NCBI RefSeq assembly: GCF_004115975.1 | Contig: NZ_SDDZ01000008.1 | Span: forward strand, 62,001-126,000 | Length of the DNA: 64,000 nt | DNA from: Gelidibacter gilvus | GTDB lineage: Bacteria; Bacteroidota; Bacteroidia; Flavobacteriales; Flavobacteriaceae | Direction: 5' to 3' | In this document: one piece after another, positions 1,582-56,348 of the stretch | How positions within the stretch are numbered: position 1 is the first letter of the stretch | Layout of the letters: every line of letters starts with the position of its first letter | Notes under the pieces: generated by a model | Told to the model about the DNA's origin: nothing | Seen by the model: the letters and a program-made list of their open reading frames with translations, nothing else | Databases searched by the model: none | Position numbers and translations under genes: made by a program

Positions 1582-1616
1582 GCTAATTCTTAATTCCTAA
1601 TCCCTCATGCCTAATC
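1582..1616. repeat. Heptamer tandem array, CCTAATn family (5 units)
   Basis: Five consecutive 7-bp units, GCTAATT, CTTAATT, CCTAATC, CCTCATG and CCTAATC, lie in the 150-bp gap between the UDP-xylose synthase and the WcaF-like gene. The same family recurs at 15005-15046 and, in reverse orientation, at 26877-26981. Confidence 0.75.
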
Positions 1617-1676
1617 TCTGAGCTACATATATCAATTTAAGCTAATATCCATGATTAAATATTTAATAACATACAT

Positions 1677-2225
1677 TTGAAAATCGATCTCTCTAAATAT
1701 AACAACAGTTGGTACCAACCTGGGTCTAAAGTCAAACGCTTGTTATGGTACTTTATCAATGAGTTGTTTCTGAAATGCAGTTTGAATCCTTCTTCAGGAC
1801 TCAAGATTTTTTGGTTAAAATGCTTTGGGGCTAAAATAGGAAATGGAGTTGTTATCAAACCAGGGATCAATATAAAGTATCCCTGGAAATTAACTATTGG
1901 CAATCATTGTTGGATAGGCGAGGAGGTTTGGATCGATAATCTAGATCAAGTGACTCTTGAAGATCACGTGTGCCTCTCGCAAGGCGCATTTTTACTTTGC
2001 GGCAATCATAACTATAAATCACCCGTTTTTGACCTCATGATTGCTCCAATAATTTTAAAAGAAGGAAGCTGGGTAGGCGCCAAAAGTATTGTTGGTCCGG
2101 GCGTGATCATGGAAAGCCATGCAGTGCTGTCTTTAGGTTCCATTACGAGCAGTAATTTAGATGCCTACGGGATTTACAGAGGAAATCCTGCGGTAAAGAT
2201 TAAGGAAAGAACAATAAACGATTAG
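1677..2225 (+). CDS. WcaF-like colanic-acid-type acetyltransferase (left-handed beta-helix)
   Basis: This 182-residue protein belongs to the hexapeptide acyltransferases and probably O-acetylates a sugar of the exopolysaccharide using acetyl-CoA. The N-terminus (KYNNSWYQPGSKVKRLLWY) is the conserved lead-in of the WcaF group. The rest has the imperfect hexapeptide repeats of a beta-helix (IGNGVVIKPGINI, IGNHCWIGEEVWI, WVGAKSIVGPGVIM). The histidine of CGNHNYKS is the likely catalytic base. The start is a TTG at 1677; no in-frame ATG upstream fits, and this start gives the family N-terminus. The stop codon is immediately followed by the ATG of the next glycosyltransferase, so the two are almost certainly translationally linked. 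Confidence 0.85.
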   Translation: MKIDLSKYNNSWYQPGSKVKRLLWYFINELFLKCSLNPSSGLKIFWLKCFGAKIGNGVVIKPGINIKYPWKLTIGNHCWIGEEVWIDNLDQVTLEDHVCLSQGAFLLCGNHNYKSPVFDLMIAPIILKEGSWVGAKSIVGPGVIMESHAVLSLGSITSSNLDAYGIYRGNPAVKIKERTIND

Positions 2226-2981
2226 ATGAAAATTTCAATTATAACTGCAACTTACAACAGCGCCAAAACTTTGGAGGTCTGTATGGATTCTGTGTTACAA
2301 CAATCGTATAAAGACATTGAATACATTATTATTGACGGTAGTTCCAAAGACGATACCCTTAGTTTAGTAAAATCGAAAGTAGAAAAGCACTCCAATATTA
2401 TTGTTGTTTCTGAACCTGATAATGGCATTTATGATGCTTTAAACAAAGGGATTGCCAAAGCTACCGGTGATATTATTGGGTTTGTGCATTCGGATGATTT
2501 TCTCGCAGACCAAACAGTCATTTCACAAATTGCTGAAGCTTTTGAATCTCAGGCTATTGACGGCATTTACGGCAATCTCCATTATGTACAGTTTGATGAC
2601 ACTTCTAAAATTGTGCGGAACTGGGTGAGCCAGCCCTTCTATCCAAAATTATTGAACCGTGGTTGGATGCCCGCACATCCGACACTGTTCTTGAAAAGAG
2701 AGGTGTATGCAAAGTACGGGCAATTTAATTTGAACTATAAAATCGCTGCCGATTATGATTTTATTCTTCGCGTCTTTAAACAAGAGCAACATCGGTTTAA
2801 ATTTTTACCCTTGACCATTACAAAAATGAGAGTAGGTGGGGCTAGTAATAGAAGTCTTAAGAATCTCTATCAAAAAACTAAGGAAGATTATAATGCTGCC
2901 TATATTAATAAAATACGCTTCCCGCTGAGGGTCATCTTATCAAAAAACCTCTCAAAAATTCCACAATGGTTTTTTAAATAA
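2226..2981 (+). CDS. Glycosyltransferase family 2 (WcaA-like)
   Basis: This 251-residue inverting GT-A glycosyltransferase begins with the family-2 opening MKISIITATYNSAKTLE. The first nucleotide-binding Asp is in IIIDGSSKDDT and the metal/nucleotide motif is in VHSDDFLAD near residue 90. The segment AADYDFILRVF matches the acceptor-side region of WcaA-type enzymes. There are no clear membrane helices, so it probably acts at the cytoplasmic face on a lipid-linked intermediate. It starts directly after the WcaF-like stop codon and is the last gene before a 200-bp promoter-bearing gap, so it may end one transcript of the polysaccharide cluster. The sugar it transfers is not predictable. Confidence 0.88.
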   Translation: MKISIITATYNSAKTLEVCMDSVLQQSYKDIEYIIIDGSSKDDTLSLVKSKVEKHSNIIVVSEPDNGIYDALNKGIAKATGDIIGFVHSDDFLADQTVISQIAEAFESQAIDGIYGNLHYVQFDDTSKIVRNWVSQPFYPKLLNRGWMPAHPTLFLKREVYAKYGQFNLNYKIAADYDFILRVFKQEQHRFKFLPLTITKMRVGGASNRSLKNLYQKTKEDYNAAYINKIRFPLRVILSKNLSKIPQWFFK

Positions 2982-3038
2982 GAACTGATATCATAAAACA
3001 TTTATTGATTAGAGTTAATAAAATATTAAATAGGGCGC

Positions 3039-3046
3039 TATTTTTG
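3039..3046 (+). promoter_or_regulatory. Bacteroidota -7 element (distal promoter of the sugar-phosphate transferase gene)
   Basis: TATTTTTG matches the TAnnTTTG -7 consensus exactly. No good -33 TTG is visible. A transcript from here would include the dyad at 3079-3099. Confidence 0.4.
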
Positions 3047-3078
3047 TCGACGTTGTAAATTGCAAAGTTAATGCTAGC

Positions 3079-5158: not shown

Positions 5159-7501
5159 ATGAACGAAGAAAGAGTGAAAACTGTCACAGGAAAAACTGAT
5201 CAAGGAGAGCAGATAAAATACGAGCTTAGGAAATATCTACGCTATTGGTTTTGGTTTGTAATTGGAATAATGATTGCTTTGGTTGCTGCCTTTTTATATT
5301 TGAGGTATACCCCCAATATTTATAACAGCTCCTCCAAAATTCAAATTTTAAATAAAAGTAAAGGTATTGAGATGCCCTCTTCAGCTTTTATTTTTAATAG
5401 ATCGACTATTAACCTTGAAAACGAAATCGAGGTTATTAAATCGTTACGGATCAGTGAACAGGTGGTTAGAAATCTTGACTTGACCATGGCTTTCTATGAA
5501 GAAGGGAATGTAAGAACAACTGAAATTGCTGGGTTTCCATTCGTGCTTACTAAAACAATTCCAAACGACAGTATCAAGTCCCATGAATCCTTTAAAATCC
5601 AAATTAAGGATACAGGTTTTGAAGTTTTTAGAGGAACATCAGATAAGGCCATCGTTTTCCCTAATTATAGCTCTTATAATGTGAGTCATGATCTTCCATT
5701 TGAATTAGAGGCGGGCAACCTAAATAACATCAAACAAAATAAGGGAAAAACATATATTTTCAGACTGATTCCAGTAACTTCTGCGGCGAAAAGTTTGAAA
5801 AGCAAGATAGGTGTTTCATTCGTAGGTAAAGGGAGTGAGTTGCTACAGTTGAATTATTCGGGAGAAAATAAGTCGCGATCAGAACAAATCCTTAATGAAT
5901 TGATGTCGGTTTTTAACTTAGATGGAATTATAGACCGCCAAGAAGTCTCTAAAAGAACCATTGCTTTTATTGACGATCGATTTGAATTGTTGGCTGGAGA
6001 ATTGGATTCTATCGAAGGGAACAAACAGGATTATAAGCAGAATAATAATTTTTTCGATGTTAAATCGGATGCCGCCTTAGGGATAAGCCAACGCACTGCA
6101 TCCGAGAACGAAGTGTTTGCAATTGAGGGTCAAATTTTGCTTTCTAATATGTTGGTGGAGTCTCTCAATATTAAAAATAATGAGTATGACCTATTACCTG
6201 CAAATATTGGTATTACCAGTGTTAATACTAATGAACTTATAGGAGCTTATAACACTTTGGTTTTTGAACGTGATAATTATTTGACCAGTGGCGGTGAAAA
6301 TAATCCTATGGTACAAACGATTAATGAAAAACTAAATGAACTGGCTAAGAATATCAACAGCTCGTTAAATGCGTACAAATCACAATTGCAGGCTTCTAAA
6401 AATCAATTGGTCAAAAGGAATGATAAATTCGTATCCCAAGTCTCTGCTATTCCTGCGAAGGAGAAAATTATGCGTTCTATTGAACGGCAGCAAGCCATCA
6501 AGGAAACCTTGTATTTATTTTTACTTCAGAAGCGTGAAGAAGCGGCTATCAATTTGGCGATTACAGAGCCTTCCTTAAAAGTGGTTGAATACGCTATTTC
6601 AGGAGGAGCGCCGATATCCCCAAATAAAAAAAACATCTACCTTATGGCCTTAGTTGGGGGTTTACTGATTCCATTTGGAATTATATATGCATCTATTTTA
6701 TTGGATACTAAAATTAAAGGTAGAAACGACGTGAAATTAAGAGCAGGTCAAATACCCATATTGGCTGAAATACCAAAAACGGATGATATGAATGTCGTCT
6801 TTACTGATCCTACCGAAAGGAGCGCGCAGGCGGAGGCGTTTAGAATTCTGAGTTCTAACGTCAGTTATATATTGACTACTGGAAAGGATGCCAAAGGCAA
6901 GATTATTTATGTGACTTCTACAATCAAAGGTGAAGGTAAAACTTATGTGGGCCTTAATCTTTCCTTGGCACTATCTAGTCTGAACAAAAAAGTGTTATTG
7001 ATTGGGGCCGATTTAAGAAACCCACAAATCCATCATTATACTCAGCCTGAATCGGACAAAAATCTACCCGGATTATCCAATTATTTACATGACGAGACGT
7101 TTAGTTGGAAAGATGCCTTAATCAAAGGATTCTCTATGCATCCGAACCACGACATTTTAATTGCAGGTGCTATTCCTCCAAATCCAGCTCATCTTTTAAC
7201 TAATGGTCGATTCGAGCGGCTTCTCAATGAAGCGAAAGAGGAATATGATTATATCATCGTTGACACCGCACCCACCATATTGGTGACCGACACCTTGTTG
7301 ATTTCTGAATTTGCAGATGCTACTTTATATTTAGTTAGAGCTGAAGTGACAGAAAAAACATTGTTGGATTTCTCCAAAGATCTTTACGATTCTGGACGTA
7401 TGAAGAATATGGCCTATATTATTAATGGCGTAGGAGCTAGTAAGTCTTATGGATATAGCTATAATTATGGCTATGGTTACGGCTATGGTATCAAAGAATA
7501 G
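5159..7501 (+). CDS. Wzc-like polysaccharide co-polymerase and bacterial tyrosine autokinase
   Basis: This 780-residue inner-membrane protein controls chain length and export of the polysaccharide through cycles of tyrosine phosphorylation. It has a first transmembrane helix near residues 28-50, a large periplasmic Wzz-type region with coiled-coil stretches, and a second helix near residues 495-520. The cytoplasmic BY-kinase domain has Walker A in STIKGEGKT (about 587-595), Walker A' in LLIGADLRNP (about 618-627) and Walker B in IIVDTAP (about 698-704). The C-terminus is a tyrosine cluster in which seven Tyr alternate with other residues, mostly Gly, the expected autophosphorylation tail. It follows the export lipoprotein gene by 2 bp. 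No separate tyrosine phosphatase gene is visible here. Confidence 0.93.
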   Translation: MNEERVKTVTGKTDQGEQIKYELRKYLRYWFWFVIGIMIALVAAFLYLRYTPNIYNSSSKIQILNKSKGIEMPSSAFIFNRSTINLENEIEVIKSLRISEQVVRNLDLTMAFYEEGNVRTTEIAGFPFVLTKTIPNDSIKSHESFKIQIKDTGFEVFRGTSDKAIVFPNYSSYNVSHDLPFELEAGNLNNIKQNKGKTYIFRLIPVTSAAKSLKSKIGVSFVGKGSELLQLNYSGENKSRSEQILNELMSVFNLDGIIDRQEVSKRTIAFIDDRFELLAGELDSIEGNKQDYKQNNNFFDVKSDAALGISQRTASENEVFAIEGQILLSNMLVESLNIKNNEYDLLPANIGITSVNTNELIGAYNTLVFERDNYLTSGGENNPMVQTINEKLNELAKNINSSLNAYKSQLQASKNQLVKRNDKFVSQVSAIPAKEKIMRSIERQQAIKETLYLFLLQKREEAAINLAITEPSLKVVEYAISGGAPISPNKKNIYLMALVGGLLIPFGIIYASILLDTKIKGRNDVKLRAGQIPILAEIPKTDDMNVVFTDPTERSAQAEAFRILSSNVSYILTTGKDAKGKIIYVTSTIKGEGKTYVGLNLSLALSSLNKKVLLIGADLRNPQIHHYTQPESDKNLPGLSNYLHDETFSWKDALIKGFSMHPNHDILIAGAIPPNPAHLLTNGRFERLLNEAKEEYDYIIVDTAPTILVTDTLLISEFADATLYLVRAEVTEKTLLDFSKDLYDSGRMKNMAYIINGVGASKSYGYSYNYGYGYGYGIKE

Positions 7502-7598
7502 AATCTTACCCTTTCAACAGTTTAGGGAGGTGATAATTATCATGCTTTACTTTATTATAAAGGAATATATTTATCATTGAAATATAAAACTAAGAATC

Positions 7599-8015
7599 AT
7601 GAAAAATATCCAACTTGTATCGGCAATAATGACCACTAAAATTGTCAAACTCAAAAAAGGCGATGATCTCGAGAGGGCGGAATATTTATTTAAAAAACAT
7701 AAGATCAGACATATCCCTGTGGTTGAAGGGAAGTCCATTATCGGGATGTTGAGCTACACCGATTTATTGCGGATTAGTTTCGTAGACGCTGTGGATGATG
7801 ATGGGGAAATTGAAAGCTTGGTCTATAATATGTTCACCATAGAACAAGTGATGGCCAAAAATATCGTCTCGGTATCTTCAACAACAAGCATCAAAGAGGT
7901 CGCACAAATTTTGGCTAAAAAAGAATTTCACGCTTTACCAGTGGTTGATGATGGTGAATTGGTGGGTATGGTGACGACTACGGATTTGATTAATTTTTTG
8001 ATTATTCATTTATAG
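7599..8015 (+). CDS. Tandem CBS-domain protein
   Basis: This 138-residue soluble protein consists only of two CBS domains, about residues 6-60 and 72-135. Each starts with a VSAIMTTKIVKLKK- or QVMAKNIVSVSS-like strand and has the IPVVEGKSIIGMLSYTDLL or LPVVDDGELVGMVTTTDLI core. Such stand-alone pairs usually bind adenine nucleotides and act as sensors. The partner is not evident, because the gene lies alone between the polysaccharide cluster and repetitive DNA. A regulatory link to the kinase upstream is possible only by position. Confidence 0.88.
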   Translation: MKNIQLVSAIMTTKIVKLKKGDDLERAEYLFKKHKIRHIPVVEGKSIIGMLSYTDLLRISFVDAVDDDGEIESLVYNMFTIEQVMAKNIVSVSSTTSIKEVAQILAKKEFHALPVVDDGELVGMVTTTDLINFLIIHL

Positions 8016-8072
8016 GGGGAGTGTGGGCAGTTGGCAGTCTTCCCGCCTTAGTGAAATAGTGCGGACAGGAAG

Positions 8073-8100
8073 GCAGTTGGCAGTCCGTAGGTAGCAGTCT
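8073..8100. repeat. Heptamer array, CAGTnnn family (4 units)
   Basis: The units are GCAGTTG, GCAGTCC, GTAGGTA and GCAGTCT, with two further units at 8027-8040. The same family is found at 10423-10450. Confidence 0.6.
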
Positions 8101-8360
8101 GAACTTGCCTGAATAGCATTCACTATTTAAATAGAAATCCAAGGTTTCATGAATTTTAAGGAAACAAAGATTCGAGGTTTCTATGTCTCAGAATCAGGTC
8201 AAAAAGGTTCCACAAAGTGCCACAAAGTAGACACAAAGATCCACAAAGGAAGTTGGAATTAAAGATATCAGATTCTGCCCTTTGATATTAGATGGTCATT
8301 GTTTGGTATTAGGAACTTTATTTGTAGGGTAGAGGTGAGAGGTGAGAGGTGTGTTCGTGA

Positions 8361-8423
8361 TCAACAATCTTCAATCTTCAATCGTAAATCAAAAATCGTT
8401 AATCGTTAATCGTCAATCGTTAA
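8361..8423 (+). repeat. Heptamer array, TCGTnAA family (9 units)
   Basis: Nine contiguous 7-bp units share TC at the start and AA at the end, for example TCAACAA, TCTTCAA, TCGTAAA and TCGTTAA. Shorter or related runs of the same family are at 8859-8886 and 9125-9180. Confidence 0.85.
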
Positions 8424-9011
8424 TCACGTCTTAACGGTTAGCCAGGTCCGACTTTAAAAATCAAAATTTCTAATATATTAGAACTTAAACTTCGAAATTC
8501 GATATTTGTCGGTCATTGTTCGATATTCAAACCTTTCTGCATCTGTTGAGGGAAGAGAATACAAGATTTTGCAGCTGCTTGTGACTAAGTTGTTTCAACT
8601 TGAATTTCGAGTTCAACTTCAACTTTCCGCCTTCGATGAATCTTCGGACGGACAAGCAATTTCCTGACCGTCCCTGCCCGACATAGTCATTCAGGCGGGC
8701 GGCGGGCAATTTCAATTTCTCCCTCTAACTTCAGTAATTCATACCGCCCTTGAACCTGCAGAAGTGAACTCAGCCCGCCGTAATCAACAATCTTCAACCC
8801 GCCCGTACTGACGGTCTATGGGAATTCCGCCGATAAGGAAACTGTACGTTCGGGCAGGTCGTAAATCAACAATCGTCAATCGTTAATCACGTCTTAACGG
8901 TTAGCCAGGTCCACAAAGTAAGTTGGATTAAAGATATCAGATTCTGGCCTTTGATATTCGATGGTCATGGTTTGGTATTAGGAATTTTCTTTGTAGAGTA
9001 TTGCGTATAGG

Positions 9012-9118
9012 GTAGAGGTGAGAGGTGAGAGGTGAGAGGAGTGAGAGGTGAGAGGTGAGAGGTGGGGAGTGAGAGGTGAGAGGTGAGAGGTGAGAGGTGA
9101 GAGGTGTGAGAGGTGTGT
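9012..9118 (+). repeat. Heptamer array, TGAGAGG family (about 14 units)
   Basis: This purine-rich run has a basic 7-bp unit TGAGAGG, with three 9-bp or variant units interspersed (AGTGAGAGG, TGGGGAG, TGTGAGAGG). The equivalent place in the first 670-bp unit has only about three units, so the array length has changed since the duplication. Confidence 0.85.
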
Positions 9119-9615
9119 ATCAGATCAACAATCTTCAATCGTCAATCGTAAATCAAAAATCGTTAAGCGTCAATCTTTAATCACGTCTGAACGGTTAGCC
9201 AGGTCCGACTTTAAAAATCAAAATTTCTAATATATTAGAACTTAAACTTCGAAATTAGATATTTGTCGGTCATTGTTGGATATTCAAACCTTTCTGCATC
9301 TGTTGAGGGAAGAGAATACTAGATTTTGCAGCTTCTAGTGATTAAGTTGTTTCAACTTGAATTTCGAGTTCAACTTCAACTTTCCGCCTTCGATGAATCT
9401 TCGGACGGACAAGCAACTTCCTGACCTTCCCTGCCCGACATAGTCATTCAGGCGGGCGGCGGGCAATTTCAATTTCGCCCTCTAACTTCAGGAATTCATA
9501 CCTCCCTTGAACCTGCAGAAGTGAACTCAGCCTGCCGTAATCAACAATCTTCAACCCGCCCGTACTGACGGTCTATGGGGATTCCGCCGATAAGGAAACG
9601 GTACGTTCGGGCAGG

Positions 9616-9706
9616 TCGTAAATCAAAAATCGTCAATCGTTAATCGTTAATCGTAAATCAACAATCAACAATCCTCAATCGTAAATCAACAATCGTCAAT
9701 CGTAAA
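9616..9706 (+). repeat. Heptamer array, TCGTnAA family (13 units), abutting the rpe 3' end
   Basis: Thirteen uninterrupted 7-bp units (TCGTAAA, TCAAAAA, TCGTCAA, TCGTTAA, TCAACAA, TCCTCAA and repeats of these) end only 7 bp before the rpe stop codon on the opposite strand. No other terminator for rpe is visible, so the array is the immediate downstream region of that gene. Confidence 0.88.
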
Positions 9707-9713
9707 TCTGCCT

Positions 9714-10422: not shown

Positions 10423-10450
10423 CAGTCAGCAGTATTCAGTTGGCAGTCTC
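10423..10450. repeat. Heptamer array, CAGTnnn family (4 units)
   Basis: CAGTCAG, CAGTATT, CAGTTGG and CAGTCTC follow one another without gaps just upstream of the rpe promoter. A related stretch occurs near 11475-11505. Confidence 0.7.
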
Positions 10451-10470: not shown

Positions 10471-11476
10471 TTCATGCCTAAATATCATTCGAATATTTAT
10501 ACCAAATTCAAGGTTTCCTAAACTTTGATAGAACTCCTAAGTGACAAAGCTATAATACAAAGCTCCACAAAGGAACGCAGATTTAAATTATATGAGAATC
10601 TAAACTTCGGCGTTCGGTGTTCGAAATTCGTCATTCGGCGTTCAGTCTTTCTGCCTCCGAAAATAATACCTCTCCGCTAAAGCTCATGTCGGGTAGGCAA
10701 GCTTCATCTTTGTTCATGCCTAAATATCATTCGATTATTTATACCAAATTCAAGGTTTCCTAAACTTTATAAGAACTCCTAAGTGACCAAGCTATAACAC
10801 AAAGTTCCACAAAGTATTCTCAAAGCTCCACAAAGAATCCCAGATTTAAATGTCAAGAGAATCTAAACTTCGGCGTTCGGTGTTCGAAATTCGTCATTCT
10901 GCGTTCAGTCTTTCTGACTCCGAAAATAATACCTCTCCGCTAAAGCTCATGTCGGGTAGGCAAGCTTCATGTTTGTTCATGCCTAAATATCATTTGATTA
11001 TTTATACAAAATTCAAGGTTTCCTAAACTTTGACAGAACTAATAATTGACAAAGCTATAACACAAAGTTCCACAAAGTATTCCCAAAGCTCCACAAAGGA
11101 CCCCAGATTTAAATTTCATTAGAATCTAAACTTCTGCGTTCGGTGTTCGAAATTCGTCATTCAGCGTTCAGTTTTCCCGCCTCAGTAAATAATACCTCAC
11201 TCCGCTAAAGCTCATGTCGGGTAGGCAAGCTTCCTGTTTGTTCATGCCTAAATATCATTCGATTATTTATACAAAATTCAACGATTCCTATACTTTGACA
11301 GAACTCCTAAGTGACCAAGCTATAACACAAAGTTCCACAAAGTATTCTCAAAGCTCCACAAAGGAACGCAGATTTAAATTTCATGGGAATCTAAACTTCG
11401 GCGTTCGGTGTTCGAAATTCGTCATTCGGCGTTCAGTCTTCCCGCCTTCGCTAAAGCTATGGATGGGCAGGCAGTT
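10471..11476 (+). repeat. Four direct repeats of about 240-265 bp
   Basis: Copies begin with ttcatgcctaaatatcat at 10471, 10713, 10976 and 11241. Each contains the same order of parts: an AT-rich lead with ttcaaggtttcctaaact, one or two copies of a CCACAAAG motif, a TTCGnnn heptamer run (for example 10606-10647: TTCGGCG, TTCGGTG, TTCGAAA, TTCGTCA, TTCGGCG, TTCAGTC), and a ctaaagctcatgtcgggtaggcaagcttc tail (split here as ctaaagctcatgtc and gggtaggcaagcttc). The copies differ by point changes and small indels. Short ORFs inside them recur with disruptions and are not taken as genes. Confidence 0.9.
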
Positions 11477-11606
11477 TCAGTTGGCAGTCTCAGTCTCAAG
11501 CGCAGTTTTCAGGGCACAGATGATATTGGGTATAGGATAGTGCGAGAATTTGACGATTTAGACTGATTTTCTTTCAATTTCATCTTCAATTTCAACTTTA
11601 AAAAGT

Positions 11607-11633
11607 GAACCCCCGGTAATCAGCCGAGGGTTC
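11607..11633 (-). terminator. Hairpin downstream of rpoD (distal)
   Basis: The minus strand reads GAACCCTCGG, a 7-base loop, and CCGGGGGTTC, followed by ACTTTTTAAAG. This is a 10-bp stem with one T-G pair and a short T run. Confidence 0.6.
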
Positions 11634-11652
11634 TTTCATCAATCAAAAAACG

Positions 11653-11692
11653 AACAGTTTAATACCCACGAAAGTGGGTATCTTATACTGTT
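11653..11692 (-). terminator. Hairpin terminator of rpoD (proximal)
   Basis: The inner stem ATACCCAC-GAAA-GTGGGTAT and the outer pairing AACAGT/ACTGTT form a long hairpin. On the minus strand six T residues follow after a short spacer. It lies 90 bp after the rpoD stop. Confidence 0.7.
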
Positions 11693-11703
11693 TGTTACTT
11701 TTA

Positions 11704-11738
11704 AATTCCAAGAATCAAAATCCAAATTCCAAAGAATA
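11704..11738. repeat. Heptamer run, AATTCCA family (5 units)
   Basis: AATTCCA, AGAATCA, AAATCCA, AATTCCA and AAGAATA are contiguous between the rpoD terminator and its stop codon. This run is more degenerate than the others. Confidence 0.5.
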
Positions 11739-11781: not shown

Positions 11782-12645
11782 CTACCCTAAGTAGGTTTTT
11801 AATATTTTGCTTCGTGAGGTATGTTTCAGCCTACGGATTGCTTTTTCTTTAATCTGGCGCACACGTTCACGCGTTAAGTCGAATGTTTCACCAATTTCTT
11901 CTAAGGTCATCGGGTGTTGATCTCCCAAACCAAAGTATAAACGGATGACATCAGCCTCACGAGGAGTCAATGTTTCCAACGCACGCTCAATTTCCGTACG
12001 CAATGATTCATGCAACAAATCCTTATCTGGATTTGGAGATTCTCCAGAGCGTAAAACGTCATACAAGTTGGAATCTTCTCCTTCAACCAAAGGCGCATCC
12101 ATGGATACGTGACGGCCAGAGTTTTTCATGGACTCTTTCACATCATTGATGGTCATGTCCAATTCTTTGGCAATCTCTTCAGCACTTGGCGGACGCTCAT
12201 GACTTTGCTCTAAAAAGGCAAAAGTCTTGTTGATCTTGTTGATGGAGCCAATTTTATTCAGTGGCAAACGCACAATACGGGATTGCTCAGCTAAGGCTTG
12301 TAGAATGGATTGACGAATCCACCATACCGCATATGAAATAAATTTGAACCCACGAGTTTCATCAAAACGTTGTGCTGCTTTAATAAGACCTAAATTACCT
12401 TCATTGATTAAATCCGGTAAGGTCAAGCCTTGATTTTGATATTGTTTTGCTACCGAAACAACAAAACGTAAATTGGCCTTGGTCAATTTCTCTAAAGCCA
12501 GTTGATCTCCAGCTTTAATACGTTGTGCCAATTCTACTTCCTCGTCTGCGGTAATTAAGTCAACTTTTCCAATTTCTTGGAGATACTTGTCTAGCGAAGC
12601 CGTTTCCCTATTGGTAACTTGCTTCGTAATTTTGAGTTGTCTCAT
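11782..12645 (-). CDS. rpoD: Primary RNA polymerase sigma factor (RpoD/SigA)
   Basis: This 287-residue sigma-70 factor is the short Bacteroidota form, without region 1.1 or the large non-conserved region of enterobacterial RpoD. Region 1.2 is at residues 15-45 ([20 protein letters not shown]). Region 2 includes [18 protein letters not shown] and the promoter-melting segment [13 protein letters not shown]. Region 3 is around residues 130-180. Region 4 has the helix-turn-helix in [20 protein letters not shown] near residues 247-266. It should recognise the TAnnTTTG promoters found throughout this window. Two hairpins follow the gene, and a -7 element lies upstream at 12733-12740. Confidence 0.96.
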
Positions 12646-12732
12646 TTAAATGTGCCTCTTTAATTTAAAATAGTGAATAATCCTTTCGTAAGTAATTATA
12701 CGTAAAAGATACTCAAAATGTTACAAGAAAGT

Positions 12733-12740
12733 CAAAATTA
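12733..12740 (-). promoter_or_regulatory. Possible -7 element of rpoD
   Basis: The minus strand reads TAATTTTG, an exact TAnnTTTG match 88 bp upstream of the rpoD ATG. A near match (TATCTTTT) lies closer to the gene, so the main start point is uncertain. Confidence 0.4.
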
Positions 12741-12871
12741 ATTTTAATTGAGAGGATATTTCGATGGATTTAAACCTCCGATTACATCGGATTGATTTCA
12801 AGTTCTCGCACTAGGCTATCCTTTTTGAGAGGTTGGAATTGCCTTTTAGTGATTTTGGTTGGAACAAAAAA

Positions 12872-12905
12872 AAAAGGTTTTTGGTCTGAGGACTAAAAAC
12901 CTTTT
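12872..12905 (-). terminator. Rho-independent terminator of the small unknown gene
   Basis: On the minus strand AAAAGGTTTTTAGTC and GACCAAAAACCTTTT form a stem with one mismatch around a 4-base loop, continuing into a run of T residues. It lies 6 bp after the stop codon at 12911. Confidence 0.8.
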
Positions 12906-12910: not shown

Positions 12911-13285
12911 TTAAAGTTTGATTAATTTTTTATCTGTCAAATTGATGGCTTCAAGCATCTCATTTGTAAACTTGTAATGTCCACGGGTTGTTATAATTTT
13001 AAATCGGGCAGAACGCATGGCGCTTAGGGTATTTAAAAATAACCATTTTGATTTTAACAAGCGCGTTTTATCCGATTTTAAGCTCAATTCAAAATAGTGC
13101 TTTCTGCCTTCCTTTTCTGCTACAATATCGGGTGTAATATTAATGTCACTACCTTTTTGGAGGTATGATTTTGGGGTTTCGTAACCCTCTGCGTCTGCTT
13201 TGATATTCTCAAAACCGATGTTTTCTAAGTAAGCTAATGATGTACTTAAAACTTCCGTATACTTTTCTTTATCTGTATGAATCAT
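12911..13285 (-). CDS. Conserved small protein, possibly restriction-endonuclease-like fold
   Basis: I do not recognise a named function for this 124-residue soluble protein, although a similar protein is common in Flavobacteriia. The central part (residues 48-72) reads PDIV, ten residues, then YFELSLK. The spacing of an Asp after Pro and a Glu in a second hydrophobic strand resembles a PD-(D/E)XK nuclease core, but the expected Lys two residues after Glu is a Ser and a Lys comes two residues later. The C-terminus is basic and could bind nucleic acid. It has its own terminator and is separated from proA by a palindrome, so it is probably transcribed alone. The nuclease idea is tentative. Confidence 0.7.
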   Translation of the reverse strand: MIHTDKEKYTEVLSTSLAYLENIGFENIKADAEGYETPKSYLQKGSDINITPDIVAEKEGRKHYFELSLKSDKTRLLKSKWLFLNTLSAMRSARFKIITTRGHYKFTNEMLEAINLTDKKLIKL

Positions 13286-13400
13286 AAGCTATAAATTAGT
13301 CAAATTTTTGACAATTCCAAGTTTTTGTGAACATTTAACTATTTCAGGTTCAGGGTTCTAAATTATGAGAGGTGAGTGGGGAGAGGGTAGTGGATGATAT

Positions 13401-13435
13401 GAATTCTAGAGTCTAGATTCTAGACTCTAGAATTC
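13401..13435. repeat. Perfect 35-bp palindrome built from nTCTAGA heptamers, just after proA
   Basis: GAATTCTAGAGTCTAGA, a single T, and TCTAGACTCTAGAATTC form a perfect inverted repeat with 17-bp arms. The same bases also read as tandem 7-bp units TTCTAGA, GTCTAGA, TTCTAGA, CTCTAGA and ATTCAGA (13404-13438). It starts about 10 bp after the proA stop on the minus strand. It could act as a 3' hairpin but lacks a T run. Confidence 0.85.
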
Positions 13436-13445
13436 AGAGTCTCAA

Positions 13446-14645
13446 TTATACACGCACATGCCCATCACCAAACACATAATACTTATTGGTGACCAATTGT
13501 TTTAATCCCAATGGCCCTCTGTGGTGTAATTTATCTGTGCTGATGGCTAATTCTGCTCCAACGCCCATTTGTCCGCCGTCAGTGAAGCGTGTGGAAGCGT
13601 TATGGTATACTGCAGCACTATCTACTTGCTCCATAAATTTTTGTGCCAATGTTTTGTCCTCTGTTAAAATGGAAGCTGAATGTCCGCCAGAATAGGTGTT
13701 GATCATCTCAATGGCAACATCTTCATTTGCGGCTTCGGCAACTAAAATTTTCATGGCCAAAAACTCTTCGTACCAAGTGTCTTCATTATCAATCTGAGTT
13801 TCGTCGGAAAGAATTTTTCCAACCTTATTATCGACAAGGAGTTCAACGCCCAAATTATGTAAAATGGCTTGAAGATCTTTCAGCTTCGTTTCGTAATTAG
13901 GAATGTTTTTGTCGATCAAGACTTTATCCAAAGCGTTACATCCTGAAATCTTATCGGTTTTGGCATTGACGATCACTTTGACAGTTTTCTCCCAATCGGC
14001 GTTTTTGGCAACATAGAGGAAGTTATTCCCTCTACCGCTGATTAATACCGCACAAGTGGCGTGGTCTTTTACGAATTTAATTAAACGTTCGCCGCCTCTT
14101 GGGACAATCAAATCAATCTTTTCTGTCGGATTCTTTAAAAACTCTTGTGTTTCTTCACGTTGCAGATGTAAGAGTTTGATCCAATCTTTGGAAAGTCCGT
14201 TTTCCTCCAAAGCTTGGTGCCAACATTTTTCGAGGATAAGATTACTGTTCAGGGCCTCTTTTCCGCCTTTTAAAAGAATTTTATTGTTCGCTTTGAAGGC
14301 TAGAACAGCAGCTTCAATGGTGACATCCGGTCGCGATTCGTAAATGATCATGATCGTACCAAAAGGTGCCGTTTTATTGGTGATCTGTAAACCGCTGTCC
14401 AAGGTTAAATCTGAGATTTCTTTTCCAACCGGATCTTCCTGGGCTTTTACTTCTGATATGGCCGTAATCATCCCATCAATTTTGGAATCATCCACCACCA
14501 ATCGGTCGTAAAGAGCTTGATCGGTTTTGTCAAAGGCATCCAAGTCTTTCTGGTTTCCTTTTAAAATGTTGTTTCGCTCTTTATCGATAATAGTCATCAT
14601 CGATTGGAGCACTTTATTTTTTATATCTGTGTTTAATAGTTTCAT
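13446..14645 (-). CDS. proA: Glutamate-5-semialdehyde dehydrogenase (gamma-glutamyl phosphate reductase)
   Basis: This 399-residue enzyme reduces gamma-glutamyl phosphate to glutamate-5-semialdehyde with NADPH, the second step of proline synthesis. It belongs to the aldehyde dehydrogenase superfamily. Recognisable segments are APFGTIMIIYESRPDVT near residues 94-110, ILLKGGKEALNSN near 123, DLIVPRGGERLIKFV near 178, SGCNALDKVLID with the catalytic-type Cys near 235, and the ending HHRGPLGLKQLVTNKY. It is the last gene of a proC-proB-proA order on the minus strand but is separated from proB by 413 bp of repeats, so it may need its own promoter. Confidence 0.95.
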   Translation of the reverse strand: MKLLNTDIKNKVLQSMMTIIDKERNNILKGNQKDLDAFDKTDQALYDRLVVDDSKIDGMITAISEVKAQEDPVGKEISDLTLDSGLQITNKTAPFGTIMIIYESRPDVTIEAAVLAFKANNKILLKGGKEALNSNLILEKCWHQALEENGLSKDWIKLLHLQREETQEFLKNPTEKIDLIVPRGGERLIKFVKDHATCAVLISGRGNNFLYVAKNADWEKTVKVIVNAKTDKISGCNALDKVLIDKNIPNYETKLKDLQAILHNLGVELLVDNKVGKILSDETQIDNEDTWYEEFLAMKILVAEAANEDVAIEMINTYSGGHSASILTEDKTLAQKFMEQVDSAAVYHNASTRFTDGGQMGVGAELAISTDKLHHRGPLGLKQLVTNKYYVFGDGHVRV

Positions 14646-14737: not shown

Positions 14738-14829
14738 CATTTCGACAAGCTCAATGACAACATTTCGACAAGCTCAATGCGAACATTTCGACAAGCTCAA
14801 TGCCAACATTTCGACATGCTCAACGGGCG
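14738..14829 (+). repeat. 23-bp tandem repeat, four units
   Basis: Units begin with CATTTCGACAAGCTCAATG at 14738, 14761 and 14784, and with the variant CATTTCGACATGCTCAACG at 14807. The spacing is exactly 23 bp. The motif resembles a short sequence often seen scattered in flavobacterial genomes. Confidence 0.9.
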
Positions 14830-15004: not shown

Positions 15005-15046
15005 CCTAATCCCTAATCCCTCATTCCTCATGTCTATTGCCTAATT
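15005..15046 (+). repeat. Heptamer array, CCTAATn family (6 units)
   Basis: CCTAATC, CCTAATC, CCTCATT, CCTCATG, TCTATTG and CCTAATT are contiguous and end 12 bp before the proB stop codon on the opposite strand. Confidence 0.85.
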
Positions 15047-19361: not shown

Positions 19362-19447
19362 GGGCGCTACCCTAAAAAGGGTCGGGCTTTCCGCTGTATC
19401 TTTTTTGTGAAAAACAAAAAAGGATGCCGCTACAATCCCTAGCGCAA
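19362..19447. ncRNA. Compact multi-stem intergenic element (unassigned)
   Basis: An outer pairing GCGCTA/TAGCGC encloses at least two internal hairpins. One is ACCC-TAAAAA-GGGT. The other is a longer stem of ATCTTTTTTGT with ACAAAAAAGGAT that has one bulged base. The block has sharp ends and a GC-rich frame in an AT-rich gap between rpsO and pnp. From memory, similar blocks are common between flavobacterial genes. Whether it is a transcribed RNA, a repeat element or an RNA-processing site is unknown, and the type label here is provisional. Confidence 0.4.
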
Positions 19448-19470
19448 AAGAGAGCTAACGCAAACAAAAA

Positions 19471-19501: not shown

Positions 19502-19771
19502 TTATTTTCTTAATCCTAATTCTTTTACGATGGCACGATATCTTAATACATCTTTCTTAGTTAAGTAATCAAGTAATGCACGACGCTTACCAACTAACAT
19601 GACCAATGAACGCTCTGTGTTAAAATCTTTACGATTTTGCTTTAAGTGTCCTGTTAAATGATTGATTCTGTAAGTAAACAAAGCAATTTGCCCTTCTGCA
19701 GAACCTGTGTCTTTTGCACCTTTACCGTGTTTTGTAAAGATGGCTTCTTTTTCTTTTTGATCTAAATACAT
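19502..19771 (-). CDS. rpsO: 30S ribosomal protein S15
   Basis: This 89-residue protein binds 16S rRNA early in small-subunit assembly. The sequence shows the family landmarks GSAEGQIALFTYRINHLTGHLK near residues 23-44 (part: GSAEGQIALFTYRINHL), the HLK-x-N-x-KDFNTERSL region, and GKRRALLDYLTKKD near residues 61-74. Length is as expected. It has a promoter -7 element 57 bp upstream and its own terminator, so pnp is probably read only partly from this promoter. Confidence 0.98.
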   Translation of the reverse strand: MYLDQKEKEAIFTKHGKGAKDTGSAEGQIALFTYRINHLTGHLKQNRKDFNTERSLVMLVGKRRALLDYLTKKDVLRYRAIVKELGLRK

Positions 19772-19827
19772 GCTAATATTATTGTAAATGATTGTTATGT
19801 ACGCGCCTCGGTTTTCGATTCACGGTG

Positions 19828-19835
19828 CAAAGATA
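19828..19835 (-). promoter_or_regulatory. Bacteroidota -7 element of rpsO
   Basis: The minus strand reads TATCTTTG, an exact TAnnTTTG match. The 50-base leader that would follow is long enough for autoregulation by S15, but no specific structure is evident. Confidence 0.5.
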
Positions 19836-22020: not shown

Positions 22021-22058
22021 TGATTTACGATTTTAGATTAACGATTAACGATTTTTGA
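22021..22058 (-). repeat. Heptamer array, TCGTnAA family in reverse, directly upstream of accD
   Basis: Plus-strand units TTTACGA, TTTTAGA, TTAACGA, TTAACGA and TTTTTGA are the reverse complement of the family seen at 8361, 9125 and 9616. The array begins within a few bases of the accD ATG and so would lie in its 5' untranslated region or promoter. Confidence 0.75.
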
Positions 22059-42465: not shown

Positions 42466-43036
42466 TTATAAAATGGTTAGAATTATGGCAACAAATGAAC
42501 AGAATAATTATATATAAAACAATAGCTAATGTTAATTAACTGTAAAAACTACATGCCCAAATGTTAAAAACAGTTAATTCCTTAATTTATAAAATCATAT
42601 ATTAAGTTTTAAGGCGTTAAAAACCAGATAGTTGAGTATAATTATTTTGATTTGGTTACAAAGATGTTAAAGCTTTGTAATTGTTGATATGTTTTTTAAT
42701 TTTTTATATTGTATTGATAATCAATTATATAAGTTGAATTATAATAAGTTTCGTTTATTGTGATGTTTTAGTATAAAGAAACAGAATTCATTAACCTCGT
42801 AGTCAGATCATTAGGTGGTTCATGCTCCTTACGGACTTCCTGTTATTGTGTTGATTAAGCAACAAATAGCATTGGTAGTTTAATATAGATCCTTGTTAGA
42901 TTAACATGATTTGAAGTTAATACTAGCCCTATTATACTTATTAATGATATGGATAATTAGCATTATATTGATTTATTAGCCTTTATATTGGAATTATAGT
43001 GATTTTGAAATGGTCTTTTTAATAAAATGGTAATGA

Positions 43037-43254
43037 TTAATTTGTGGAGTTGAAGTTGACTACTCTGAAAAGGCATATAATTATGAGATCGATAAATCCG
43101 AAGAATTCAATTAGTTATATAGAGAAAAGTTCGAAATAGGAAAGGTATTGAATTCTACATAATGCGAGACTTATATAATGATAGCGTTAGATCTAAAGTT
43201 TCTCAGGGAATTAAAGCTAAAGATATTGTGGGCGTCTGGTCTTTAGGGTTGTAG
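43037..43254 (+). pseudogene. Decayed ORF, possibly the C-terminus of a DUF1343-type (exo-N-acetylmuramidase-like) protein
   Basis: Two fragments in different frames read as protein. The first is GVEVDYSEKAYNYEIDKSEEF (21 residues in two parts: GVEVDYSEKAY and NYEIDKSEEF), ended by TAG. The second begins about 43123 and ends at 43254 with the segment DSVRSKVSQGIKAKDIVGVW. The pattern of an Arg, a Gly seven residues later, then a hydrophobic-acidic stretch and Trp recalls the end of DUF1343 proteins. This is from memory and weak. The frames contain stops and no intact gene is possible. Confidence 0.35.
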
Positions 43255-43277
43255 ATTACTTGTGAAGAATAAAAAAA

Positions 43278-43297
43278 GCCACTTAACTAAAGTGGCT
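43278..43297 (-). terminator. Terminator of the aminotransferase gene
   Basis: AGCCACTT and AAGTGGCT pair around a 4-base loop, and seven T residues follow on the minus strand, 30 bp after the stop. Confidence 0.8.
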
Positions 43298-43327
43298 ATT
43301 AATATATTTATTTGGTCGCTATGTTAT

Positions 43328-44512
43328 TTAATTAACTGCAGCTTTGATGCGTGCCATCGCTTCCACAATCTGATCTTGTGAAGCTGCGTAAGAAAGTCTG
43401 ATGCAATCTGGATTTCCGAATGCACCGCCGTCAACTGTGGCTACAAGTGCTTCTTCGAGCAAATACAAAGAGAAATCGGCAGCATTATTAATAGTTTTCC
43501 CTCTCAATGTCTTGCCAAAATAATAGGATATATTTGGAAATACATAAAATGCGCCTTCAGGGATGTTGGTTTTAAAACCTTCAACGTCTTTAAGTAAATC
43601 AAGAACCAGATCACGACGAACTTTAAATTCGTCAATCATAAACTGAACTCTAGATGGCGACTCATTTAAAGCGGTAATAACAGCCCGTTGGGCAATGCTA
43701 TTGGCACCACTGGTTATTTGACCTTGCATTTTATTGCAGGCACGTGCAAATATTTCAGGACCTCCCATATACCCAATCCGCCATCCGGTCATAGCAAATG
43801 CTTTTGAAACGCCGTTAATGGTAATCGTACGGTCGTACATATCTTCAAATCCTGCCATGCTTGCATGTTTGCCGACAAAATTGATGTGTTCATAAATTTC
43901 GTCAGAGACTACAATAATATGAGGATGTTTTAACAAGACATCGGCTAATCCACGTAATTCTTCCTTGCTATACACAGAACCACTCGGGTTGCACGGCGAA
44001 CTGTACCAAAGCATTTTTGTTTTAGGCGTAATGGCAGCCTCCAATTGCTCTGGTGTCATCTTAAAATCAGTGGCAATAGTTGTGGGTACTTCAACAGGTA
44101 TGCCGTCATTTAGTTTTACCAAATCGGCATAGCTCACCCAATACGGACAAGGGATAATCACCTCGTCACCCTTATTGATTAATATGGCAGCAACATTTGC
44201 AAGCGATTGTTTGGCGCCTGTTGATACTACAATTTGACTGCGATTGTACGTTAGACCATTGTCGCGCTTGAACTTTTTGATGATGGCATCTTTAAGCTCT
44301 ACATAACCGTCCACTGGCGTGTAGGAGCTGTAGTTGTCATGGATGGCTTGTATGGCGGCCTCTTTTATATAGTCTGGCGTATTGAAATCTGGTTCGCCTA
44401 AGCTTAAACCAATGATGTCTTTTCCTTCTGCCCTTAATTCTCTGGCTTTAGCGGCCATTTCTAAAGTTGCAGAGGTAGACATGTTTAGAATTCTATCTGA
44501 AAGTAAGTTCAT
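43328..44512 (-). CDS. Aspartate-type aminotransferase (class I, pyridoxal phosphate)
   Basis: This 394-residue enzyme transfers amino groups between aspartate-like amino acids and 2-oxoglutarate. The N-terminal half has LSLGEPDFNTPDYI near residue 36 and the cofactor-binding STGAKQSLANV near residue 101. YSSPCNPSG near residue 170 and the Schiff-base lysine in GVSKAFAMTGWRIGYMGG near residue 236 follow. A C-terminal Arg in CIRLSYAAS binds the carboxylate. This is the AspC/PatA subgroup Ib, which in some bacteria also acts on prephenate. It is the downstream neighbour of a desaturase gene, 13 bp away, though a metabolic link is not obvious. Confidence 0.9.
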   Translation of the reverse strand: MNLLSDRILNMSTSATLEMAAKARELRAEGKDIIGLSLGEPDFNTPDYIKEAAIQAIHDNYSSYTPVDGYVELKDAIIKKFKRDNGLTYNRSQIVVSTGAKQSLANVAAILINKGDEVIIPCPYWVSYADLVKLNDGIPVEVPTTIATDFKMTPEQLEAAITPKTKMLWYSSPCNPSGSVYSKEELRGLADVLLKHPHIIVVSDEIYEHINFVGKHASMAGFEDMYDRTITINGVSKAFAMTGWRIGYMGGPEIFARACNKMQGQITSGANSIAQRAVITALNESPSRVQFMIDEFKVRRDLVLDLLKDVEGFKTNIPEGAFYVFPNISYYFGKTLRGKTINNAADFSLYLLEEALVATVDGGAFGNPDCIRLSYAASQDQIVEAMARIKAAVN

Positions 44513-53633: not shown

Positions 53634-53643
53634 TATAGAGACA

Positions 53644-54870: not shown

Positions 54871-54873
54871 ATT

Positions 54874-55623
54874 ATGGCGATCGATACAGATAAAAATAGT
54901 TATACCGTTATTTTTGCCATTGTTATGGTTATTGTGGTTGGTTCTATTCTTGCAGGACTGGCCCAAGGCTTAAAACCTTTGGTAAAAGCGAATGAGCGAT
55001 TTGAAATACAACAGAATATATTGTACGCCATGGGCATCAATGCCAATGAAGGACCAAGTGATGTTGAATTCATATCTGCCGACAAAGTAGAGGACGTATT
55101 CAATAGTACCATTACAAAACAATATATAGTTGAAGGTGATAAAGTGACTGAGGATGCTCAAGCTTACTTGCTAGATGTCAAAAAAGAAGAGGCAAAAGCG
55201 AAAGATCCTAACTACACACGTAAGTTGCCTTTGTTTGAAGGTGAAAAAGATGGAAATCCTATTTATGTCATGCCTATTAGAGGAAAAGGATTATGGGATG
55301 CCATTTGGGGTTTTGTAGCTGTAGACAAAGATATGGTGGTACAGGGTGTATTTTTTGATCATGCCGGAGAAACTCCTGGTTTAGGTAGTGAGATTAAACA
55401 GCGTTATTTTATGGACGATTTTGAAGGTGAACACCTTTTAAATGAATCTGGTGCTTTTAAAGGAATAACCGTAGCGAAAGGGAACGCAGATCCTAGGAAT
55501 GATAGAAAAACTGACAATGCGGTAGATGCAATTGCAGGGGCTACTATTACTGGAGACGGTGTTACTGCGATGATTAAAAAGGATTTAAGAATGTATGTGC
55601 CTTATTTCAAGACATTAAAATAA
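54874..55623 (+). CDS. nqrC: Na+-translocating NADH:quinone reductase subunit C
   Basis: This 249-residue protein has one N-terminal membrane helix (FAIVMVIVVGSILAGLA near residues 12-28) and a periplasmic FMN-binding domain. The covalent FMN site is DAIAGATITGDGV near residues 219-231, in which the Thr of AGAT is the acceptor. GLWDAIWGFVAVDKDM and HAGETPGLGSEI are further conserved parts. It follows nqrB by 3 bp and overlaps functionally with ApbE, which needs this motif. Confidence 0.96.
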   Translation: MAIDTDKNSYTVIFAIVMVIVVGSILAGLAQGLKPLVKANERFEIQQNILYAMGINANEGPSDVEFISADKVEDVFNSTITKQYIVEGDKVTEDAQAYLLDVKKEEAKAKDPNYTRKLPLFEGEKDGNPIYVMPIRGKGLWDAIWGFVAVDKDMVVQGVFFDHAGETPGLGSEIKQRYFMDDFEGEHLLNESGAFKGITVAKGNADPRNDRKTDNAVDAIAGATITGDGVTAMIKKDLRMYVPYFKTLK

Positions 55624-55629
55624 AATTGT

Positions 55630-56274
55630 ATGAGACTTTTATCAAAAAAAGATAGTAAACTAATCATGGATCCTTTGGCGGATAATAACCCTATTACCAT
55701 TCAGGTTTTAGGAATCTGTTCTGCCTTGGCTATTACTGCACAGTTAAAGCCATCTATAGTAATGGCTATTTCTGTAATATTTGTGTTAGGAGCCGGTAAC
55801 GTAGTTATTTCGTTAATGCGAAATATCATTCCTTCAAAAATCAGAATTATTGTACAACTCGTCGTAGTGGCAACCTTAGTAATTATTGTTGACCAGGTGT
55901 TGAAAGCTTATGCTTATAGTTTGAGTAAAGAGCTTTCTGTTTTCATCGGACTTATTATTACCAACTGTATTATTATGGGACGTTTTGAAGCTTTTGCTTT
56001 GGCAAACGGACCTTGGCAATCATTTTTGGATGGTGTTGGTAATGCTTTAGGTTATGGAGTTATTTTAGTTATTGTGGGCTTCTTTAGAGAGCTTTTAGGG
56101 TCAGGTACCTTGATGGGCTTTAAAGTTTTGGGAGACCCTGTTGAGAAAACCGGTCTATACGCTATCGGTTATGAAAATAACGGCTTCATGGTTCTACCTC
56201 CAATGGCATTGATAGTCATAGGTATTATCATTTGGGTACAAAGAAGCAAAAACAAAGAATTAATAGAAGACTAA
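55630..56274 (+). CDS. nqrD: Na+-translocating NADH:quinone reductase subunit D
   Basis: This 214-residue protein has six hydrophobic helices. The conserved cysteines in ICSALAIT near residue 29 and TNCIIMGR near residue 114 match those that, with the pair from NqrE, hold the iron centre in the membrane. MDPLADNNPITIQVLG near residue 13 and RELLGSGTLMG are other NqrD marks. It lies 6 bp after nqrC. An unusual 84-bp gap with a heptamer run follows before nqrE. Confidence 0.96.
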   Translation: MRLLSKKDSKLIMDPLADNNPITIQVLGICSALAITAQLKPSIVMAISVIFVLGAGNVVISLMRNIIPSKIRIIVQLVVVATLVIIVDQVLKAYAYSLSKELSVFIGLIITNCIIMGRFEAFALANGPWQSFLDGVGNALGYGVILVIVGFFRELLGSGTLMGFKVLGDPVEKTGLYAIGYENNGFMVLPPMALIVIGIIIWVQRSKNKELIED

Positions 56275-56320
56275 TTTAAATAGCCTGCAGTAAGCAGACA
56301 TCAGTAAGCAATAAAGCGCT

Positions 56321-56348
56321 ACTGAAGACTGTGGACTGAAGACTGAAG
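56321..56348 (+). repeat. Heptamer array, ACTGAAG family (4 units), between nqrD and nqrE
   Basis: ACTGAAG, ACTGTGG, ACTGAAG and ACTGAAG are contiguous and end 10 bp before the nqrE ATG. The other gaps in this operon are 3-10 bp, so the 84-bp gap is an insertion relative to the rest. Confidence 0.8.

Follow-up and report, generated by a model that had tools for sequence, protein, structure and literature searches.

The window, a 64,000-nt stretch of Gelidibacter gilvus DNA (contig NZ_SDDZ01000008.1, positions 62,001 to 126,000), carries many short tandem tracts whose wording differs from place to place and whose unit length is 7 bp (Table 1). We found that unit length 7 is in excess of the neighbouring lengths, that the arrays are mostly intergenic and patchily distributed, and that the strand leaving a gene 5' to 3' reads GATT, CAGT or TTAG, at starts and at stops. 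This layout at gene edges suggests one directional copying process. We favour, with about an even chance of being right, a model in which slippage, starting from seeds at gene edges, builds the arrays outward while their gene-side end stays fixed.

For the window scan, each lag from 3 to 30 was scored alone (+1 for a match, -1.5 for a mismatch, threshold 13); all lags are alike under chance because matches were scored per lag separately. At this main setting eight lag-7 segments were found, all intergenic, and none at lags 3-6, 8-11 and 13; lag 12 gave one, which is genic, lags 14, 21 and 28 gave 5, 5 and 4, and lags 16, 23 and 30 gave 1, 2 and 1. Two alternative scoring settings returned 11 (10 intergenic) and 8 segments at lag 7, with at most one each at lags 8 and 9, and Markov-shuffled intergenic DNA gave about 0.007 segments per lag. 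Arrays were also counted in a sample of the window's genome, 61 stretches of 1,242,717 bases in all (window included, 172 kb intergenic). Intergenic arrays there number 61 for period 7, 10 for 14, 9 for 11, 7 for 6, 6 for 21, 4 for 25 and 3 each for 12 and 18, with 0-1 at every other period, and 61 of the 68 seven-bp arrays are intergenic. The sample favours tract-rich regions, as 20 stretches out of the 61 were chosen mostly by AATC-pattern matches and the C24 part after matches there had already been seen. The part least affected by choice, C33 200-600 kb (54 kb of intergenic DNA), alone holds 4 seven-bp arrays versus 3 of period 21, 3 of period 25 and 1 of the next period. As an outside comparison, 80 rpoD loci of other genera (1.45 Mb, 154 kb intergenic) yielded 6 intergenic arrays of 7 bp, 4 of 21 bp and 3 each of 8, 10 and 14 bp, and 50 kb of E. 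coli K-12 contained no array at any period.

A first-pass annotation of the window had listed 15 ranges and claimed a strict 7-bp period despite differing sequences. The window scan and the genome sample uphold this claim, and in neither were 6-, 8- or 9-bp arrays as frequent as 7-bp ones. In all 15 ranges the best lag among lags 4-12 is 7, with identities of 0.52-0.83, four of them being weak (8073-8100, 10423-10450, 11704-11738 and 27031-27058, the last of 28 bp; Table 1). Isolated lag-7 runs of at least 8 numbered 10, 12 and 6 in three sets from the genus, where the other lags from 5 to 20 mostly gave 0-8 runs (lag 12 up to 12 once) and lag-21 runs were equally common (14, 8 and 8, part degenerate 7-phase and part true 21-bp repeats). 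Many of the lag-7 runs, taken as possible fresh duplications, come from the same word families, and at the 80 loci of other genera they (7) did not stand out from other lags. The rule of 7 has an exception in the rpoD-rpe interval of loci L156-L158, where in some species 6-bp arrays, runs of the TTGAAG/TTGAAA type, lie beside the heptamers.

The placement and orientation of the arrays were compared with genes called by a simple open reading frame (ORF) rule (at least 90-100 aa, first ATG), so that start positions are rough; the multi-species counts include orthologous sites, and loci of the CAGT pattern partly repeat sites of the window's genome. Pooled over five genomes of the genus, 34 of 86 arrays lay within 10 nt of a stop, versus 10.2 expected (maximum 18 in 1000 random placements in the same intergenic region), and 11 of 66 lay near starts, within chance (6.8 expected, maximum 14); the earlier statement that arrays lie next to gene ends thus holds for stops. 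Within 15 nt after stops in the genus, the sense strand reads GATT by 10:1 and CAGT by 10:0, while within 15 nt before starts it reads AATC by 5:0 and ACTG by 4:0, and AATC by 8:0 in other genera. Taking one tract per region of the window's genome, the nearer gene was on the 5' side for GATT in 23 of 24 regions, for CAGT in 16 of 18 and for TTAG in 8 of 11. The sum over these cores (47:6) counts some regions twice, GATTAGG containing both GATT and TTAG; the union of the three gives 43 of 48 regions (p 1.4e-8), and 17 of 19 were polar in the window, C24 and C33 alone. Polarity was also seen in other genera, for TTAG in 18 of 21 cases (12 genera pooled) and for GATT in 17 of 22 (five more genera); the 12-genus TTAG set has 14 tracts within 20 nt on the 5' side, yet 5 on the 3' side too. 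Among tetramer classes represented by 12 or more regions, five of six were polar, the exception being ATTC; GAGG (7:6), TTCG (1:2) and AAAC (4:8) were non-polar or too few. When arrays are taken regardless of wording, the strand richer in G points away from the nearest gene in 49 of 63 cases next to stops and only 16 of 30 next to starts, so the rule at starts is carried by the GATT and CAGT families. Genes lacking tracts showed no such skew downstream of their stops (G 0.158, C 0.163) and a mild one upstream of their starts (G 0.122, C 0.158). We did not find this boundary rule stated for Bacteroidota in the open-licence papers searched.

The main rival to outward slippage, and in our view an unlikely one, is that the tracts are selected boundary elements, either one-way transcription filters (Rho-like) or unstructured leaders before start codons. 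RNA entering a gene from outside would be C-rich and G-poor (AATC, ACTG, CTAA) and RNA leaving it G-rich, and the polarity at both starts and stops, with AATC or ACTG in the sense in nine of nine genus cases within 15 nt of starts and AATC in eight of eight from other genera, is what such elements would show. Passages in PMC6847099 report that initiation in F. johnsoniae is aided by A at -3, -6, -12 and -13. Before the second Rnf/Nqr gene the units ACTGAAG, ACTGTGG, ACTGAAG and ACTGAAG are equal in number in four species and differ by one or two changes, in the first unit only, which again favours selection; however, the genes on either side of this tract are closely spaced, run in one direction and probably form an operon, whose own mRNA a filter would stop. 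Tracts are moreover gained and lost at sites between species. An ACTG-NNN-ACTG lies within 220 nt upstream of rpe in seven of the seven relatives in which the rpoD-rpe interval was read (G151 not among them), but at none of the 53 loci outside the genus that had an rpe match among the 80 rpoD loci.

Tandem stop codons were a further candidate, since TAA, TAG or TGA every 7 nt closes three frames within 21 nt. Of genes with a tract, 13 of 39 have all three frames closed no more than 24 nt downstream of their own stop, versus 67 of 928 genes without one; of the GATT-NNN units, 158 of 187 contain a stop on the GATT strand and 69 on the opposite strand. Over the 41 arrays at stops, however, the share of units with a stop was 0.65 in the sense, 0.55 in the antisense and 0.57 after column permutation (sense higher in 19, lower in 11, tied in 11). 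The CAGT units are reversed, 12 of 87 having a stop on the CAGT strand versus 56 on the other, and CAGT is nonetheless the sense strand after stops. Starts, moreover, show the same polarity. The idea, promising by eye and for GATT, is thus weak over all arrays and contradicted by CAGT, and we give it very little credence.

The internal structure of the tracts bears on how they arose. On 53 arrays of at least seven units from five genomes of the genus, identity between units at distances 1-8 was 0.813, 0.747, 0.694, 0.660, 0.629, 0.595, 0.563 and 0.555, a steady loss of the kind expected from local copying with change. The first-pass annotation had offered as explanations a still hypothetical protein working in 7-nt steps and a selected 21-bp helical phase; the smooth drop over unit distances 1, 2 and 3 (0.81, 0.75, 0.69) leaves the latter unsupported in long arrays, although pooled intergenic autocorrelation is higher at lag 21 (0.2989) than at lag 14 (0.2949) and isolated lag-21 runs are common. 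In many tracts one letter block is constant and the rest is variable. Deviations cluster by column, with a summed statistic of 488 versus 244 expected and p<0.05 in 15 of the 50 arrays tested (those of the 68 in the genome sample with enough units and changes). GATT occurs at spacing 7 in 339 places versus 86-132 at spacings 5, 6 and 8-12, and CAGT in 109 versus 14-38, in a sample that includes the AATC-picked stretches. Some tracts switch motif in phase: a tract of about 46 units in another genome of the genus, G013 (L130 12517-12840, partly overlapped by an ORF at 12583-12900), runs from CAGT-NNN by way of TTCG-NNN and TCACCAA to TCCAACT and then back. Such in-phase changes, together with other-strand equivalents (ACTGAAG is CAGT-NNN, and ATTAGGN is CCTAATN, read from the opposite strand), mean that the proposed count of at least eight unrelated consensus sequences was partly too high.

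Comparison between species showed that the tracts are widespread and labile. Judged from the sigma factor, the nearest named relatives of the window's genome belong to Flavobacteriaceae. The pattern (AATC-NNN)3-AATC has 107 matches in the window's genome versus 12 for a reversed control, and is present in nine of nine searched genomes of the genus and 63 of 149 of the family; the reversed control, CTAA-NNN, is itself frequent in several other genera. CAGT tracts were found in nine of nine genus genomes. Gene order of the window is mostly kept in stretches of G150, G151 and G152, and the orthologous intergenic regions there hold tracts of other length or wording, or none. The region at 13285-13446 has GAGAGGT-like and TCTAGA words in the window, CAGT, then CTCTCAC, then CCCTCAT in G150, CAGT and AATC in G151, and a bare 111 bp in G152. 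In the interval corresponding to 7501-7599 a tract, (GGTTGTC)n of 133 bp, is seen in G151 alone; G150 has a 623-bp tract in its rpoD-rpe region and a TTAATAC tract in the counterpart of the 15005-15046 region. G151 and G152 retain about two units of the tract at 22021-22058, and the tract at 26875-26981 is shorter in G150 and G151 and reduced to one unit in G152. Beside the start of gene 21161-22018 and beyond the stop of gene 26157-26882, a comparison by eye shows similar gene-side units in the different species and a longer far side in the window's genome.

These data are consistent with a model in which a tract grows by repeated 7-nt duplication in which the adjacent unit serves as the template for each new one, with slippage as the probable cause. 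Point changes would accumulate and then be duplicated, so that the wording would drift while the 7-bp phase stays. The few orthologous sites suggest that growth proceeds outward from a gene-side seed, and growth on the gene side would be blocked by coding DNA because a 7-bp insertion shifts the frame. The preference for 7 may most simply stem from the polymerase that replicates or repairs the DNA, a proposal already made in print for bacteria in general.

Several observations weigh against this slippage model. Simple slippage offers no reason for polarity, and the ATTC core is non-polar (8:7). Homogeneity is alike in gene-side and far halves (0.796 versus 0.822; 25 arrays, p 0.21), and outward growth is therefore not confirmed by it. 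The triplets of GATT-NNN (in 43 tracts AAC, GAT, TTT, GAC, GTT, TAC, GAA, AGG, GAG and others) resemble draws from a genome-wide word list rather than copies of their neighbours, the identity of adjacent triplets being 0.257 versus 0.200 (standard deviation 0.022) in within-locus shuffles. The reading that the three triplet positions vary freely and independently was rejected: the mutual information among them is 0.10-0.20 bits, a figure that may include small-sample bias, and no simple rule was found for the word list. The decay of identity with unit distance fits polymerase slippage; the word-list behaviour of GATT-NNN does not. Heptamer classes also recur across loci of the window's genome, with 135 sharing pairs (some stemming from duplicated regions) versus 10.9 expected (maximum 24), and slippage at independent seeds predicts no such sharing.

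Recurring classes would be expected if tracts spread from locus to locus through recombination or on a mobile element, and the triplets common across genera and a palindromic element within CAGT tracts point the same way. Multi-unit blocks, however, are not clearly shared: 2-unit words number 89 versus 74.8 +- 8.9 in within-locus shuffles, 3-unit words 10 versus 6.7 +- 2.5 and 4-unit words 1 versus 0.3. Without a clear excess of shared multi-unit words we rejected block copying between loci, and we regard dispersal as a whole as distinctly improbable. The palindromic element, of the type CTTGCCCGTCCGC..GCGGAGGCGGGAAG and by appearance repetitive extragenic palindrome (REP)-like, lies at 8038-8080 and 11438-11490 of the window, within CAGT/ACTG tracts, and recurs in the rpoD-rpe interval of L156, L158, L159 and L164. 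A dispersed short motif, TCTTGATTCTTGATTCTA, a 7-bp doublet within a longer common word, was seen at three places (L119 16883, L119 16936 and L147 6501).

The polarity could also come from the extension of broken DNA ends, in which 3' ends between genes are extended in 7-nt G-rich steps and then joined. This would give both the outward polarity and facing pairs, and neighbouring opposite tracts in the genus stretches do face each other ('><' 9, '<>' 1; same-core blocks '><' 10 to 0). Ku, found in 12 of 149 family genomes, gave mixed results: 8 of the 12 genomes with Ku were tract-rich (at least 10 pattern matches) versus 31 of 137 without (Fisher p 0.0026), but the link vanished at a threshold of one match (p 1.0) and without the window's genus (p 0.27), and four genomes (G138, G141, G077 and G096) are rich in tracts although no Ku match was found in them. 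Reverse transcriptases were unlinked (p 0.81-0.85). With no lasting association, Ku and reverse transcriptase were rejected as causes, and no enzyme of the kind is known here; break-end extension is very unlikely in our view. Contig C40 of the window's genome carries one reverse transcriptase and one Ku match (42804-43421 and 83834-84370). A wider conjecture, on which we would place only a very small stake, is that bacteria of several phyla extend DNA 3' ends in telomere-like fashion, in 7-nt G-biased steps leaving genes, the tracts being scars and the facing pairs rejoined breaks.

Table 1. Heptamer tracts of the window, in order of position
Unit	Position	Strand	Lag-7 identity	Remarks
CCTAATN	1582-1616	-	0.71	Reads ATTAGGN on minus; next lag 0.38; nearest called genes 58 and 61 nt away
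CAGT-NNN	8073-8100	+	0.52	Weak; 57 nt past stop of CBS-domain gene (Pfam CBS)
AGAGGTG	8331-8351	+		Three exact copies
GATT-NNN	8361-8425	-	0.80	AATC-NNN on plus
GAGAGGT	8998-9118	+	0.83	About 14 copies (13.6), phase shifts; score 66
GATT-NNN	9124-9183	-	0.71	AATC-NNN on plus
GATT-NNN	9616-9708	-	0.76	13 units; 5 nt from rpe stop; constant core, variable triplet; column test p 0.005
CAGT-NNN	10423-10450	+	0.57	19 nt upstream of rpe start (rpe on minus)
TTCG-NNN	10606-10647	+	0.69	Recurs within 263-bp tandem element
AATTCCA	11704-11738	+	0.57	Weak; lag 6 at 0.52
TCTAGAN	13404-13442	undefined (self-complementary core)	0.79	Near stop (13446) of aldehyde-dehydrogenase-family gene (Pfam Aldedh)
CCTAATN	15005-15046	-		13 nt from stop of gene at 15059
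GATT-NNN	22021-22058	+		Starts 2 nt from start codon of minus-strand gene 21161-22018
ATTAGGN/GAGTGAG	26875-26981	+		Starts within stop-codon region of SpoU-family methylase gene (Pfam SpoU_methylase)
AAAC-NNN	27031-27058	+	0.67	Weak
CAGT-NNN	56321-56351	-		ACTG-NNN on plus; 7 nt before second Rnf/Nqr-family subunit gene (Pfam Rnf-Nqr)

Other repeats and RNA-like elements lie among these tracts. At 10558-11447 a 263-bp unit that carries TTCG-NNN tracts and period-10 CACAAAG runs stands 3.4 times in tandem with 91 per cent matches, and a 23-bp unit, CATTTCGACAAGCTCAATGCCAA, is repeated 3.7 times at 14738-14823. Directly 3' of the rpoD-type sigma factor gene, on the minus strand at 11595-11695, lies a conserved RNA-like element in which CTGTTCGTTTTTTGATTGATGA is invariant in 20 of 20 aligned sequences, with an ACAGT..ACTGT pair on one side and a terminator-like, GC-rich hairpin on the other. 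The loci examined hold 34 distinct sequences of this element, with two-sided changes in two of eight predicted consensus pairs, and no Rfam family matched the window's copy above threshold. Minus-strand Rfam matches at 19376-19448 and 19769-19835 are to Flavo-1 RNA and the Flavobacteria S15 leader.

The strand-and-boundary rule narrows the possible causes, as it depends neither on one particular sequence nor on G-quadruplexes, nor on start or stop codons themselves. The polarity is of specialist interest because it is valid for several words and for both kinds of gene edge, and it extends beyond this genus to pooled loci of 17 further genera, all of one family, and, on our reading of published numbers, to Xanthomonas. 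The rule also turns the question into a testable one, namely at which end the tracts grow. Among known heptamer systems, the cyanobacterial STRR (short tandemly repeated repetitive) sequences are short tandem heptamers between genes, and heptad operators, such as that of the omega repressor, are bound by a protein with a 7-bp pitch.

The dominance of 7 in bacteria is already published; for Flavobacteriaceae, the present analysis adds how the wording drifts, how deviations gather in columns and how the tracts are oriented. According to the account in PMC4679880, heptamers are the most abundant repeat unit in most genomes (Mrazek 2007), and a proposal credited to the same work is that 7 nt may be the stretch contacting the polymerase; PMC4692102 likewise cites a 2007 work for over-represented heptamers. 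The excess has thus been on record since 2007, with polymerase contact as the only cause proposed in the sections of PMC4679880 cited here. The tracts described here resemble those long simple sequence repeats in their favoured unit of 7 and in being scattered over lineages; the 2007 work as told in PMC4679880 counts repeats, whereas drift, columns and polarity are described here. The same source, for work by MacGregor (2015), places TAACTGA repeats in Beggiatoaceae, cyanobacteria and five Bacteroidetes, with other heptamers beside the arrays in Gramella, Aequorivita and Elizabethkingia. The first-pass remark that no named system exists in Flavobacteriaceae is therefore only partly right, given the heptamer excess in most genomes (PMC4679880, PMC4692102) and the TAACTGA arrays of Gramella, Aequorivita and Elizabethkingia (PMC4679880). 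The exact class TAACTGA is absent from the exact doublets of the 1.24-Mb sample of the window's genome. As PMC4679880 describes them, TAACTGA repeats stand just before start codons with ACTG on the sense strand; here ACTG is in the sense in four of four CAGT/ACTG tracts within 15 nt of starts, yet 10 such tracts follow stops. In the Beggiatoaceae genome one heptamer prevails (PMC4679880), unlike the many words here.

A comparable layout is that of GGGAATC in Xanthomonas: according to the relevant sections of PMC4692102, the gene on the 5' side lies on average 28 nt away and the downstream one 160 nt away, this holds 'almost exclusively' and for both gene orientations, and no cause is given. 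Positions 1-4 and 6 of this heptamer are conserved, convergent pairs number 70 in Xcc and 75 in Xac, and for the GGGGA(T/C)T of Nostoc only few paired repeats are reported there (PMC4692102). The class GGGAATC was not found among the exact doublets of the sample of the window's genome. Unlike the Xanthomonas and Nostoc repeats as described in those sections, the tracts here have many cores, mostly without G-runs (the main ones, GATT and CAGT, lack GGG), and drift in motif within one phase; quadruplexes therefore cannot be the common cause. We nevertheless read the Xanthomonas layout, on the numbers given in PMC4692102, as the same as that found here, with the core strand nearer to its 5' gene and with convergent pairs.

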